This document shows positions 33,691 to 39,193 of a DNA stretch of 64,000 nt, piece after piece (position 1 is the stretch's first letter; every line of letters begins with the position of its first letter). The stretch is from an uncultured cyanobacterium. Lineage in GTDB: Bacteria; Cyanobacteriota; Cyanobacteriia; Cyanobacteriales; Geitlerinemataceae. The position numbers were made by a program, and so were the translations under genes. The notes under the pieces are model-generated. The model saw only the letters and a list, made by a program, of their open reading frames with translations, searched no databases and was not told the DNA's origin. Where the stretch lies: NCBI GenBank assembly GCA_937899645.1, contig CALCCD010000049.1, positions 1 through 64,000 of the forward strand. The letters run 5' to 3'.

Positions 33691-33836
33691 TCGACTTTCA
33701 TTGAACCGTACTCGTGCCGGGTCTCTTTGCGATCGCCGAAACGCGGGTTAGTATAGACCCAAGATCCCCACTTGTCGGTCAGTTGAGCGAGATGAGCGGG
33801 CGATCGACTGCGATCCGACGCACGTTGGCGAGTGCT

Positions 33837-34775
33837 ATGGACTCTCGAGAACTGAAATTCGTCCTCAAGCTTTTGGGCGCGCCGGACTACCGCGCCCCGA
33901 TCGCCGAGATTAAGCCGAACTTGCGTACGAAGGCCGCCGAGCGCGACAGCATCTGCCGGGTTCTGCGCGATCGCGGCTTGGTGGACTGCAACGAGCAGGT
34001 GACGCGCTTTCGGCTGACGCCTGCCGGGAAAGCGCTACTGTCGCTGGACGTAAAGCGGCTGCCCGTTTCTCCGGATGAAATCGAGCTACTGCATGCCGGT
34101 GGGGACGCTCGCGTTGACGTAAAGGATATCGACCTGCCGAGCGATCGCCTGCAAGCCGCCCTCGAACGGGCGATCGGGCGCGGCTTTCTAAAGGTCGAAA
34201 AGGCGACGATCGAGACGGTCTGGCTGACCGAGCGCGGCCTCGACTATTTGCGCGACGAGTTTTCCCCCAGCGGTACGGCCCTGGAGCTGAGCCTCGATCA
34301 CCTGTCGGAATATTTGCGCTTTTTGCGCCGCTCCCAGTCCCGACCTCAGCCGCAGGCACAGGCGTCACTCCAGAATGCCGCGTCTGTCGTCGCGAACCCG
34401 GTGACGCTCGAGCCAAACGAGTTGGCCGAGCTGTCTGAATCGCCCGAGCTGTCTGAATCGCCCGAATCGCCATCACCCGTGCCGCAGGTTGCAATCGCGA
34501 CCGAGAGCCCGCCAACCGCCGACGAAGTTTACGCCGCGATCGTCGAACTCGATCGCGAGTACGCCACCGATAACTACCTGCCGCTCTACTACCTGCGCGA
34601 TCGCTTTGCCGCCCTCGATCGCGACGGTCTCGATCGCCTGCTGTACGCGCTCCAGCGCCAAGACCGCATCGAACTCAGCTCTCTCCAGGAAGCGGCCTTC
34701 TACAGCGCCGAACAGGTGGCGGCGGGCATTCCGCAGGATATTGGCGGGCCGTTGTTTTTCGCAATCCGCACCTGA
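33837..34775 (+). CDS. Protein with three apparent winged-helix domains (312 aa)
   Basis: I do not recognise a named family. The sequence divides into a winged-helix-like domain (about 1-65: MDSRELKFVLKLLGAPDYRA, ending FRLTPAGKALL), a second one (about 75-145, ending ETVWLTERGLDYLRDEF), a Gln/Pro/Ser/Glu-rich linker (about 170-225, with repeated ELSESPE), and a third one (about 230-312: TADEVYAAIVELDREYATDN through LDRLLYALQRQDRIELS). Each ends with a beta-wing-like stretch. It precedes the ATPase gene by 128 bases on the same strand and probably forms a two-gene unit. A DNA-binding or ATPase-adaptor role is inferred. Confidence 0.82.
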   Translation: MDSRELKFVLKLLGAPDYRAPIAEIKPNLRTKAAERDSICRVLRDRGLVDCNEQVTRFRLTPAGKALLSLDVKRLPVSPDEIELLHAGGDARVDVKDIDLPSDRLQAALERAIGRGFLKVEKATIETVWLTERGLDYLRDEFSPSGTALELSLDHLSEYLRFLRRSQSRPQPQAQASLQNAASVVANPVTLEPNELAELSESPELSESPESPSPVPQVAIATESPPTADEVYAAIVELDREYATDNYLPLYYLRDRFAALDRDGLDRLLYALQRQDRIELSSLQEAAFYSAEQVAAGIPQDIGGPLFFAIRT

Positions 34776-34802
34776 TTTCCGCTGCGGCTTTCTGCCGAAT
34801 CC

Positions 34803-34845
34803 ACCAAACCCGCCAAACCCGCCAAGCCCACTAAACCTGCCGAAC
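34803..34845. repeat. Microsatellite-like CCGCCAAA(C) repeat
   Basis: Four to five imperfect 9-base units of (A/C)CCGCCAA in the gap between the winged-helix and ATPase genes; no function apparent. Confidence 0.45.
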
Positions 34846-34903
34846 TCAACGCTCCCGCCAGTCTCGACGACCTCCGCGCAATCTAACCACCCCCCCGCTC
34901 GTT

Positions 34904-37159
34904 ATGCTCTCGATCGATCGCATCATCCAGCGCGACCCCAACCCCTTCGACACGGAAACGTTTTGGTCGGGCAACTTCTGGCAGGAGGAGCAAAACCCGG
35001 ATCTGACGGTGGACTCGATCCACGCCGAGACGATCCGCGAGCTGGAGGCGATTCTCGATCGCGTTCGGGCCGATCGGCGCACGCGGACAGTGATACTCGA
35101 AGGCGAGACGGGCTCGGGCAAGACGTACCTGCTCGGACGCATCAAGCGCAAGTTCAACCCGAAGGCGTTTTTCGCTTACATCGAGCCGTTCACTGCCAGT
35201 GACTACATTTGGCGGCACATCTTGCGCTACACCGTCGATAGCCTGCTGGAAACGCCGGAAGGGCAGAAGCAGTCGCAGCTCTTGCTCTGGCTCCAGGGGC
35301 TCAAGGCGTTTAAGCAGCGATCGGTGCTCGATCGCCTCCGGGGCGAGCGGCAGGTGTTTATCCGCAAGCTGATGGAGTCGTATCCGTCGGGCATCTACAA
35401 TGCCCAGGAGTTCTTCGGCGTACTCTACGGTCTGACCGATAGCCGCACCTACCTCGAAGCCTGCGAGTGGCTGCGCGGCGACGACCTCGATGACGAGACG
35501 CTGCGACGGCTGGGGGTGCGATCGTGCATTGACACCGAGGAAGCGGCGCAGATGATGATGGCGAACTTCGGACGGATCGCCATCGAAACGAAGCCGATCG
35601 TCCTTTGCTTCGACCAGCTCGACAACATCGCCCGCAACCGCGACGGCCAGCTCGATATCGAGGCGCTGTTTCGGGTCAACGCCATACTCCACACTCAGAA
35701 GCTGAAGAATTTCTCGATCGTTATCAGTGTGATTACGGACACCTGGCGGCAGAACTGCGAGCGCATCCCCCAAACCGATCGCGATCGCATCGACAACTTC
35801 CTCAAGCTCAAGCAAATCGGCCTCGACCAAGCTGAAGCGCTGTGGGCCAGCCGTTTGTACTTGCTGCACTACCAGGCGCGGCCCCAGCCCGAGTCGCCGA
35901 TTTACCCGCTCGATCGCCAGCATCTGGAAGCGAAATTCCCCGGCGGCAAAACGCGACCGCGCAATACGCTGATTCTCGGGCGGCGGCTGTTTCAGGAAAT
36001 CAAGATCGCGCTGCTCCAGGACGATCTCGACGATCGCCAGCGCAGCCCGGTGGCCGCGATCGCCAGCGGAGCCGCGACGGCCTTCGCGCCCGCAGCCAAT
36101 GATGCAGAACCGATCGAGGCGACCTTGGAATCGTCCCTGGGAGCGCCCCTAGAGCTGGCCGAGCCCGACCATTCCGTCCTCGGCGACCGTGACGACAATA
36201 TCGTCGAAGCCGAGATCGTCCACGACACCCGCGAGACTGCGCCCGTCGCGAGACCGATTGCCCCGGCCAACCGCAACCCCGAAGCCGACCCCCGCGTCGC
36301 CTTCAAGCTGGTCTGGCGCAAGAAGTTTCAGCAAACCCAAAGCCGTGTCGAGAAGATTCGCCAGTACGCCACACCGGAGCTGATTCAGATGTTGGCGGAG
36401 GTATTCGACGTGCTGGAGATTCCCGACGTGCGATCGCGCGTGTTGCAGAGTCGCACCTACGCCAGCTACTCCTTGAGCTATCGATCGCCCGTTACCGGCG
36501 AAAAAGTCGGCGTCGTCTGGTCGGAGGACGTCAACCTGGTGAAGCTATTTAATATGCTCAAAGCCTGCAAAGACGCCCTGGAAGCCGATCGCTGCACGGC
36601 GCTGCGACTGCTCCGCGCCGAGGGAATGGGCGCTCCGAGCAATCGCGGCTACAAGCTCTACCAGGAGCTGTTCGCGATCGATCGCCACCGGCACTTCGTC
36701 CCCGACCTAGCCTCGGTACATTTTCTGGTGACGTACCACTCTCTCGTTAACGACGCCCTTTCCGGCGACCTGGTGGTGGGCGATACAACGCCGGATTTGG
36801 TGCGCCTACAGGGACTGATGCGCGAGACGGGGCTGCTCGAAACCTGTGCGCTGCTAGAGCAGTTCGGGTTCGCCAAGCTGCGAGCCGCGCCGACCGGAGC
36901 GGCGGACGCACCGACCACTGAGGCGATCGCGGAGTTTATGGTCGATCGCGTCGTCAACCAGCAGTGCATGGCGATCGAGCAGCTCGTCCGCGAGGCCCTG
37001 ACTCAGTTCCACGGCTTCGAGGAAGAGCGTGTCGTCGGGCTGATCTACGACCTGGCACGGGGCGCGCAGCCGATCGCCGTCCTCGATGCTGAAGCCGATC
37101 TGACCGAGCAGCTCGTTTACGCGACCGCCACGTCGGACACGTCGGATACGTCGGGTTGA
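34904..37159 (+). CDS. P-loop ATPase with unrecognised C-terminal region (751 aa)
   Basis: A large cytoplasmic ATPase of the AAA/ORC-like class. Walker A GETGSGKT is at 67-74 and Walker B PIVLCFDQLD at 231-240; residues 100-215 form a helical insertion, and a sensor-like ISVITDTWRQ segment follows. Residues about 390-450 are an Ala/Glu-rich linker. The C-terminal half (about 460-640) has a patterned core (LQSRTYASYSLSYRSPVTGE, then VGVVW, LFNMLKACKDALEAD) that may be a separate domain, and a last helical region extends to 751. I cannot name the family. It pairs with the winged-helix gene upstream. DNA-directed ATPase activity, as in replication-, SMC-loader- or defence-associated ATPases, is inferred from architecture. 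Confidence 0.85.
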   Translation: MLSIDRIIQRDPNPFDTETFWSGNFWQEEQNPDLTVDSIHAETIRELEAILDRVRADRRTRTVILEGETGSGKTYLLGRIKRKFNPKAFFAYIEPFTASDYIWRHILRYTVDSLLETPEGQKQSQLLLWLQGLKAFKQRSVLDRLRGERQVFIRKLMESYPSGIYNAQEFFGVLYGLTDSRTYLEACEWLRGDDLDDETLRRLGVRSCIDTEEAAQMMMANFGRIAIETKPIVLCFDQLDNIARNRDGQLDIEALFRVNAILHTQKLKNFSIVISVITDTWRQNCERIPQTDRDRIDNFLKLKQIGLDQAEALWASRLYLLHYQARPQPESPIYPLDRQHLEAKFPGGKTRPRNTLILGRRLFQEIKIALLQDDLDDRQRSPVAAIASGAATAFAPAANDAEPIEATLESSLGAPLELAEPDHSVLGDRDDNIVEAEIVHDTRETAPVARPIAPANRNPEADPRVAFKLVWRKKFQQTQSRVEKIRQYATPELIQMLAEVFDVLEIPDVRSRVLQSRTYASYSLSYRSPVTGEKVGVVWSEDVNLVKLFNMLKACKDALEADRCTALRLLRAEGMGAPSNRGYKLYQELFAIDRHRHFVPDLASVHFLVTYHSLVNDALSGDLVVGDTTPDLVRLQGLMRETGLLETCALLEQFGFAKLRAAPTGAADAPTTEAIAEFMVDRVVNQQCMAIEQLVREALTQFHGFEEERVVGLIYDLARGAQPIAVLDAEADLTEQLVYATATSDTSDTSG

Positions 37160-37465
37160 ATCGAGGATCGGGCCGAGCGCTAGGCCGGGAACGGGCCGAA
37201 AAATCGAGTTTAAAGACCGAGCCAACGCCGGGACGCTTCCGGGTTTGGCTGCAATGCGCGTGAATACTCCGAGGCGCGCTCGCAAGGCTTTCGTCCATAA
37301 TGGAAGTTAGAGAAATGTTCGTGACGGGCGAAGCGATCGCACGTCTCGGCTCGCGATGTCCCCGCGCGTTCCCGCTCCTGCCGAACCGCGATCGCGAGTC
37401 AGCACGACCTTCTCCAGGGTGTCGTCTCCAAATACCTCCGACGGCCATGCATCCGGTCGATGTCT
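37160..37465. other. 306-base gap before the kinase gene
   Basis: I see no gene. A GGCC-bracketed short palindrome (GGCCGAGCGCTAGGCC, 37170-37186 region) follows the ATPase stop and may be part of a terminator without a T tract. The kinase promoter should lie here. Confidence 0.4.
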
Positions 37466-39193
37466 ATGACTTACTGCGTCAACCCCGACTGTCCCGCTCC
37501 TGAAAATCACGATTCCGCAGAGGTCTGTGCCGCCTGTGGCTCGTCGCTGTTGCTCAACGGGCGCTATCGTCCGATTCGCGTGCTCGGTCAGGGGGGATTT
37601 GGGGCGACGTTTATCGCGCGCAATACGTCGCTGCCCGGCCAACCCATTTTTGCTGTCAAACAGCTCCGTATCGCCTCGGAAAATCCCCAGGCCCTCGAGC
37701 GAGCGCGCCAGCTTTTCGAGCGCGAAGCTACGGCCTTGGGCAAAATCGGCAACCACCCCCAAGTGCCCAGCTTGATCGACTATTTCCAGGACGCACGCCA
37801 GTTTTACCTCGTGCAGGAATACGTCAAGGGCCTAACCCTCAAGCAAGAGGTCAAGCAGTCCGGCCTGTTCGACGAAACCAAGGTCTACGATTTTTTAATC
37901 GAGACGCTGACCCTGCTGAAATACTTCCAAAGCCGCGAGGTCATCCACCGCGATATTAAGCCCGCCAACATCATCCGCCGCAGCATCGACAACCGCCTCG
38001 TGTTTATCGACTTCGGCGCGGTCAAAGACGAAGTGACGCAGACGATGCTGCTCGACGAGGAAGACAATCCCAATACGGTTTTCGCGATCGGTACGCCGGG
38101 ATTCGCGCCGCCGGAGCAACTCGGACTGCGGCCCACCTTCGCCAGCGATATTTATGCCCTCGGCGCGACCTGTCTATATCTAATGACGGGGCAGTCGCCC
38201 AAGCGCTTTGGCCGCGACCCGCAGACCAGCGCGATCGAGTGGCGCGAGCGGCTGCAAGTTTCCGACGGGCTCGGCGCAATTCTCGACAAGATGCTGCAAC
38301 CGAGCACCACGAGGCGCTACTCTGCCGCTGCGCTGGCCATCAACGATCTCCAAAAGATCGACCCGCACGCGGTTGCCGTGCCCGCCGATATGCCGCCCCC
38401 GCCGCCCGCCGCCCGTTCGGCGGCCCGTCCGGCTGCCGCTATTCAAGCCGCCGCCTCGCCGCTGGCTTCTCCGTCCGCAGCCCGCAAGCCTGCTGCCCGT
38501 CCGCCCGCCCGCTCGGAGGCACGTCCCAAGGCCCGTCCTGAAGTCTCTCCTGCCGCCCGCCGCGATCGCGCCGATAGCAGCACCGATACGCCGAAAAAGT
38601 GGAAGTCCCTGTCGGAGTTGCGTGCCGAGCAGCAGCAGGACGGCGAAGCCGACAGCGACGCGAGTAGCGACATGCCGCCGCTCGATCGCTCGAACCTAGC
38701 CGCCGCACGTTTTCACGTGTCCTCGACCAACTCGCGAGCGGCGTCCCACACCAGCGGCGAGCGCGTCACGGTGCGATCGCTCTGCCGTTCCTACAGCCAA
38801 GGCCAGCGCGATTTTGCCAACTGCAACCTCAGCGGCGCGAACCTCCACGGCCTCGACCTGTCGTCGGTGAACTTCAACGAGTCAAAGCTGATCCGTACAA
38901 ACCTCAACGGCACGAATTTACACAAAGCCGACCTCAGTCAGGCCGGTTTAGCCCAGGCCAGCCTACGCGATGCCAACCTAATGGCGGCGTTCTTGAGCTA
39001 CGCCAACCTAGCCGGAGCCGACCTGCGCGGCGCGAACCTAACCGAAGCGCACCTCAGCTACGCCAACCTGTCGGGCGCGAACCTGTGCGGTGCGAACTTG
39101 TCGGGCGCGCGGGTGACACCGGAGCAGCTCTCCAACGCCAAAACTAACTGGCGGACGATTATGCCCAATGGCAAGCGCGGCCTGTTCCAGTAG
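37466..39193 (+). CDS. SpkB-like serine/threonine protein kinase with zinc ribbon and pentapeptide repeats
   Basis: A 575-residue Hanks-type kinase. An N-terminal zinc ribbon (Cys4, Cys9, Cys21, Cys24: MTYCVNPDCP and CAACGSS) precedes the kinase domain: glycine loop LGQGGFGATF, VAIL-type lysine in AVKQL, catalytic HRDIKPANII, DFG in FIDFGAVKD, and GTPGFAPPEQ. A Pro/Ala/Arg-rich linker (about 310-410) is followed by a block of pentapeptide repeats (about 445-555: A-N/D-L-x-x). This is the SpkB architecture of Synechocystis, linked there to oxidative stress. An ATG at 37460 is an equal alternative; 37466 gives the usual M-x-YCVNP start. Confidence 0.92.
   Translation: MTYCVNPDCPAPENHDSAEVCAACGSSLLLNGRYRPIRVLGQGGFGATFIARNTSLPGQPIFAVKQLRIASENPQALERARQLFEREATALGKIGNHPQVPSLIDYFQDARQFYLVQEYVKGLTLKQEVKQSGLFDETKVYDFLIETLTLLKYFQSREVIHRDIKPANIIRRSIDNRLVFIDFGAVKDEVTQTMLLDEEDNPNTVFAIGTPGFAPPEQLGLRPTFASDIYALGATCLYLMTGQSPKRFGRDPQTSAIEWRERLQVSDGLGAILDKMLQPSTTRRYSAAALAINDLQKIDPHAVAVPADMPPPPPAARSAARPAAAIQAAASPLASPSAARKPAARPPARSEARPKARPEVSPAARRDRADSSTDTPKKWKSLSELRAEQQQDGEADSDASSDMPPLDRSNLAAARFHVSSTNSRAASHTSGERVTVRSLCRSYSQGQRDFANCNLSGANLHGLDLSSVNFNESKLIRTNLNGTNLHKADLSQAGLAQASLRDANLMAAFLSYANLAGADLRGANLTEAHLSYANLSGANLCGANLSGARVTPEQLSNAKTNWRTIMPNGKRGLFQ

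Follow-up and report, generated by a model that had tools for sequence, protein, structure and literature searches.

A conserved gene pair encoding a winged-helix protein and an ORC/Cdc6-type ATPase in a cyanobacterium, a probable derivative of predicted HerA/FtsK capture operons

The window analyzed here is a 64,000-nucleotide stretch of DNA from an uncultured cyanobacterium of the family Geitlerinemataceae. At positions 33837 to 37159 it carries two genes on the same strand, separated by 128 bases and encoding proteins of 312 and 751 residues; the coordinates, lengths, strand and spacing given in an earlier note, written from the sequence alone, all proved correct. The features of the locus are as follows:

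33837..34775, + strand: winged-helix (WH) protein, 312 aa, three winged-helix domains (translation, homologue alignment, AlphaFold2 model)
33837..34046, + strand: winged helix 1, residues 1–70 (AlphaFold2 model; MarR-type folds in a VIA search over residues 1–145)
34071..34271, + strand: winged helix 2, residues ~79–145 (AlphaFold2 model; VIA search over residues 1–145)
34344..34514, + strand: Ser/Glu/Pro-rich disordered linker, residues ~170–226 (low pLDDT; unconserved in the alignment)
34515..34772, + strand: winged helix 3, residues ~227–312, the best conserved part of the WH protein (alignment and AlphaFold2 model)
34904..37159, + strand: ORC/Cdc6-type AAA+ ATPase, 751 aa, copy A of the twin-ATPase form (model, VIA-align, tree)
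34904..36043, + strand: AAA+ domain, residues 1–380 (VIA-align Z 15.4 to 7jgr_G; AAA_16 above cut-off)
35102..35125, + strand: Walker A GETGSGKT, residues 67–74 (motif tables; Lys invariant in 67/67)
35594..35623, + strand: Walker B PIVLCFDQLD, residues 231–240, Q replacing the usual catalytic E (motif tables)
36281..36883, + strand: alpha/beta domain, residues ~460–660, candidate inactive restriction-endonuclease-like domain (DSSP of the model; motif tables)
36917..37126, + strand: C-terminal winged-helix-like tail, residues ~672–741 (H-E-H-H-E-E secondary structure of the model)

The mechanically called reading frame of the WH gene opens at a GTG at 33714; as aligned relatives begin at a conserved M-[DE]-x-x-[EQ]-[LIV]-K, the ATG at 33837 is the better supported start. 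The AlphaFold2 model of the protein, built with 37 homologues, has a mean pLDDT of 86.7, and the three winged-helix segments and the Ser/Glu/Pro linker that had been read from the sequence can be seen in it, the predicted domains spanning residues ~3–69, 79–141 and 228–311 and the linker about 170–222. Winged helices 1 and 2 match MarR-type regulators structurally, as might be expected of a plain transcription factor paired with an ATPase and acting on gene expression; we regard this reading as highly improbable, given that winged-helix folds are generic, that the partner is of the ORC/Cdc6 type, and that a fusion nuclease recurs as a third gene (see below).

In its own model (46 homologues; pLDDT 85.9, pTM 0.84), the ATPase has an AAA+ domain at its N-terminus and a C-terminal half, with residues 388–444 forming a disordered linker between them. 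The best structural match of the AAA+ domain in VIA-align is ORC/Cdc6 (7jgr_G, Z 15.4, 3.3 Å over 244 residues), and the same search returned TnsC (Z 14) and BrxC (Z 12.5). Both Walker motifs lie where the earlier note had placed them, although it overlooked the glutamine that stands for glutamate in Walker B, as well as the winged-helix-like element at residues 672–741. Its patterned but unrecognized domain at about 460–640 is modelled confidently (pLDDT >90 in most blocks), and the C-terminal domain has no Pfam or PDB sequence match; whole-model VIA and Foldseek searches gave little information on residues 500–751.

According to DSSP, the core of the alpha/beta domain at residues 490–570 runs helix, three strands, helix, strand, as restriction-endonuclease-like folds do. 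No conserved [D/E]xK or other nuclease motif was found in the domain, [D/E]xK occurring at a chance-like frequency in 8 of 67 sequences, and arginine 571 is invariant among the homologues. On the basis of this topology, and of its agreement with a published description (PMC10853773), we consider residues 460–660 a candidate inactive restriction-endonuclease-like domain.

We collected 67 full-length homologues of the ATPase from 57 loci of related cyanobacteria, for which the gene calls came from a simple longest-ORF procedure. A WH gene lies directly upstream on the same strand in 51 of the 67 cases, an association far beyond chance; the two genes thus form a conserved unit, adjacent in other genomes as well. 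Pairwise distances in the WH and ATPase trees correlate with r 0.74, compared with a maximum of 0.31 in the shuffled null, a value uncorrected for species kinship. The two genes do occur apart: the WH gene is kept without the ATPase at three loci (L066–L068), and the ATPase without the WH gene at two (L142, L143). The system was detected in 46 of 386 sampled cyanobacterial genomes; a contig-level genome scan returned only five close relatives. No homologue was found in the phages or viral contigs searched, and among the plasmids searched only a conjugative plasmid of Pseudanabaena PCC 7367 carries the system. Scans for promoters and terminators gave nothing clear. The kinase/pentapeptide gene at 37460–39193 was rejected as a member of the unit, being separated from it by a gap of 300 bp and not adjoining the pair in a second genome (G002).

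In 35 of the 67 cases, the next gene in the operon is an intact fusion of an exonuclease, an Fe-S PD-(D/E)XK nuclease and an FtsK translocase (DNA_pol_A_exo1 4e-25, PDDEXK_1 6e-16, FtsK_alpha 2e-9, FtsK_SpoIIIE 3e-36). Across these 35 sequences the residues of the DEDD-type 3'-5' exonuclease (D25/E27/D90/D162) and of the nuclease (D365/E380/K382) are conserved, as are the cysteines of the Cas4/AddB-type Fe-S site (210/470/473/479) and the FtsK Walker motifs. Such three-gene operons occur in many families of the order to which the window belongs, as well as on the Pseudanabaena plasmid. They fit the Orc/CDC6-class HerA/FtsK capture systems that Rakesh, Aravind and Krishnan (NAR 2024, PMC10853773) predicted to be anti-invader defences and proposed to intercept invading DNA. 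The pair, put forward in the earlier note as the main candidate for an undescribed system, therefore does not represent one, the class having been described computationally in 2024, even though cyanobacteria go unmentioned in the main text of that paper.

No nuclease gene adjoins the window pair, and a search of the window genome, which is 100% complete, for the fusion gave nothing but ordinary FtsK- and RNase D-like matches; decayed fusion fragments are present in three other genomes (G004, G077, G094). The two genes constitute a unit, but an incomplete one: most relatives have the nuclease-FtsK third gene, which was lost in the lineage of the window.

Nine more of the 67 ATPases are themselves second copies that lie behind a WH-ATPase pair. 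In the ATPase tree, clades A and B are each monophyletic (support 1.0 and 0.994); the window ATPase belongs to clade A, and another ATPase of the same genome (on contig C65, L046), which stands alone on that contig, belongs to clade B. A and B are adjacent behind a single WH gene at L047, L049, L050, L052, L055 and L058. At two further loci (L057 4827–15915 and L063 7689–17881), WH-A-B is followed on one strand by WH-ATPase-nuclease in a head-to-tail run of six genes, an arrangement that fits tandem duplication of the operon. Three genomes (G000, G003, G032) have the twin form without a nuclease gene, and a fourth (G004) has only a decayed remnant of one. Comparison of the genes of the window genome with those of G001 gave dN/dS values of 0.09 (A), 0.13 (WH) and 0.06 (B), which are rough because dS exceeds 1 but speak for purifying selection on each of the three. 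The window lineage lost its nuclease gene and kept the second ATPase copy.

At L057 and L063 the twin form arose next to the complete one, and most genomes with the twin form also have the complete one. Both points would suit a self-protective regulator, in which a nuclease-less twin-ATPase complex holds the DNA sites of the complete system and so restrains it, surviving as a relic where that system is gone. We think this improbable, because a pure restrainer would not need the purifying selection apparent in the window genus, from which the complete form is missing.

AAA+ proteins usually carry a glutamate after the Walker B aspartate. In the twin form this residue is Q in 11 of 11 members of clade A and N in 11 of 11 members of clade B; in the ATPases of three-gene operons it is Q in 25 of 35, N in seven and E in three. 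As Walker A is kept and Walker B reads D-Q or D-N, we infer that both A and B bind ATP and hydrolyze it slowly, bearing in mind that a Walker B substitution is not proof of lost hydrolysis.

We propose, with a probability of roughly 0.55, that the pair is what is left of an Orc/CDC6-type HerA/FtsK capture system after loss of the nuclease, namely its DNA-recognition and AAA+ half, and that it now acts as an ATP-locked DNA clamp. The ancestral operon, known from synteny, encoded the WH protein, the ATPase, and the fusion of DEDD exonuclease, Fe-S PD-(D/E)XK nuclease and FtsK alpha and motor domains. In this ancestral form, the triple-WH protein would bind target DNA, the ATPase would assemble around the WH-bound DNA, as other ORC/Cdc6 proteins do, and the translocase would then be recruited and reel the DNA into the fused nucleases. 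Tandem duplication of the operon followed in the clade of the window, and one copy became WH-ATPase A-ATPase B with no nuclease gene; in the window genome, ATPase B was later relocated and the complete nuclease operon vanished. With ATP bound and hydrolysis slow, A and B could form a long-lived hetero-oligomeric clamp on WH-marked DNA, which would either be a roadblock or offer a platform to some nuclease or regulator provided in trans. A bolder version, in which the twin-ATPase form is a distinct and self-sufficient system whose triple-WH-guided, hetero-oligomeric ORC-like clamp of two slow-hydrolyzing paralogues would silence or block invading DNA and leave it uncut, seems to us possible but rather doubtful.

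The surroundings of the locus bear on whether such a clamp would serve defence. A location in a defence island found no support, the neighbours being ordinary genes with PADLOC matches in only two of 121 proteins. The locus often stands beside the same glycosyltransferase and ParA genes, in a location often common to different families, and because these neighbours recur it looks largely vertically inherited. The ParA gene is conserved downstream on the same strand, two to five genes away, at 14 of 57 loci (e.g., L134 13300–14184). It is also widespread in genomes without the system; we therefore rejected it as a fourth component and take it to mark a common location.

This largely chromosomal setting, with its recurring glycosyltransferase neighbours, its ParA gene at 14 loci and its scarcity of defence genes, together with the resemblance of the FtsK alpha and motor domains of the fusion to cellular FtsK, would agree with a housekeeping role in DNA repair or chromosome maintenance: the WH-ATPase pair would load the FtsK-nuclease onto broken or entangled chromosomes, and the twin form would regulate or replace it. 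We nevertheless consider such a role unlikely, as the system is missing from near-complete genomes and confined to the minority of sampled genomes noted above, has decayed repeatedly, and is found once on a conjugative plasmid; the ParA gene, for its part, marks a common location rather than a component. For the proposed capture-system derivative, defence is likelier than replication, segregation or regulation, in view of the class to which its relatives belong, their patchy spread, their repeated decay or replacement, and the plasmid-borne copy. The DNA-directed role proposed in the earlier note is reasonable, with defence as the leading option, although for the window genome, which lacks the only obvious effector, the case for defence is indirect.

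A two-gene cassette, comprising an HsdR_N-like nuclease domain fused to ParA and a ParB_N protein, is found at L181 (7979–10095), and also at or beside the operon in L182, L180, L142, L143, L066 and L140. In L181, L182 and L180 it adjoins a piece of the FtsK-nuclease gene that has stayed behind. At the common location in Nostocaceae, the operon is truncated at the cassette in L181 and L182, the remaining fusion fragments being 95% and 94% identical, and this site may thus be one where DNA-directed cassettes turn over.

Other relatives of the ATPase were also noted. A distant sister operon (L145–L147, L149, L152–L154, L157) encodes a WH protein, an ORC-like ATPase whose Walker B often reads D-E, and a protein of ~490 aa; the three of these third genes that were scanned (L145, L149, L153) all contain DUF1802, and two gave a weak match to Mrr nuclease. 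Related AAA+ proteins with an N-terminal 3'-5' exonuclease domain are encoded at L158 (4420–6771), L159 (3414–5936), L168 (6458–8890) and L169 (1791–4241), with RNase_T matches in those of L158 and L168; on a plasmid of Synechococcus elongatus, one such gene precedes genes for TIR and macro-domain proteins. The window genome itself encodes a further related ATPase of 771 aa (L179 4206–6521), flanked on one side by a likely membrane protein and on the other by a vWA-like one, and similar trios occur in L150 and L155.

Cyanobacteria thus present three natural states, the WH-ATPase pair with an intact nuclease-translocase, both forms together, and the nuclease gone with the rest conserved, a natural experiment in which the recognition step is separable from the killing step. 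The class has been predicted, and we found no experiment on any of its members in the literature searched. As the Walker B motifs of A and B are fixed differently, as D-Q and D-N, in every member, the twin form offers a testable prediction on ATP-locked DNA clamps.

Among known systems, the closest are the capture systems themselves. Their neighbourhoods, as set out in the main text of PMC10853773, combine an Orc/CDC6 ATPase, in which an inactive nuclease domain precedes the C-terminal wHTH, with an active nuclease, a HerA/FtsK protein and a protein of 2–4 wHTH domains; in some of them FtsK is fused to a 3'-5' exonuclease. The window locus shares the Orc/CDC6-type AAA+ ATPase, the extra alpha/beta domain before the C-terminal wHTH and the separate multi-wHTH protein, and its relatives share the active nuclease, the FtsK with FtsK-alpha and the fused exonuclease. 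Since translocase and active nuclease are both missing from the window locus, we treat it as a derivative rather than a member of the class, from whose described systems it also differs in having two paralogous ATPases, one with D-Q and one with D-N at Walker B, and in the mostly chromosomal, apparently stable location. The same paper describes an Orc/Cdc6 ATPase together with a Walker-B-disrupted Orc/CDC6 ATPase and a KAP NTPase, likewise a pair of Orc/Cdc6-type ATPases with altered Walker B; here, however, both copies and not one lack the usual acidic residue, the partner is a triple-WH protein, and no KAP gene was seen at the window locus.

SspFGH (PMC8092258) also combines a P-loop ATPase with a large protein having an FtsK-like C-terminus, and the FtsK part of the relatives' fusion (L053 10555–13212) matches the C-terminus of SspH at 3e-61. 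Membership was rejected, as the ATPase and WH profiles do not match SspF or SspG of the cyanobacterial loci L170 and L171, and no phosphorothioation genes adjoin the window pair. DndFGH was not matched by name in PADLOC. As to SMC-kleisin-KITE complexes, neither SMC nor kleisin was seen among the 25 commonest neighbour families, and a profile scan returned a weak match to MksE (0.034). With ORC/Cdc6 replication initiators the window ATPase has the fold alone in common. BrxC of BREX and BREX-related capture systems (PMC12839542) resembles it in joining an ORC/Cdc6 AAA+ domain to an alpha+beta domain and wHTH domains, whereas the window ATPase is much shorter and is seen with neither PglZ nor a methyltransferase.
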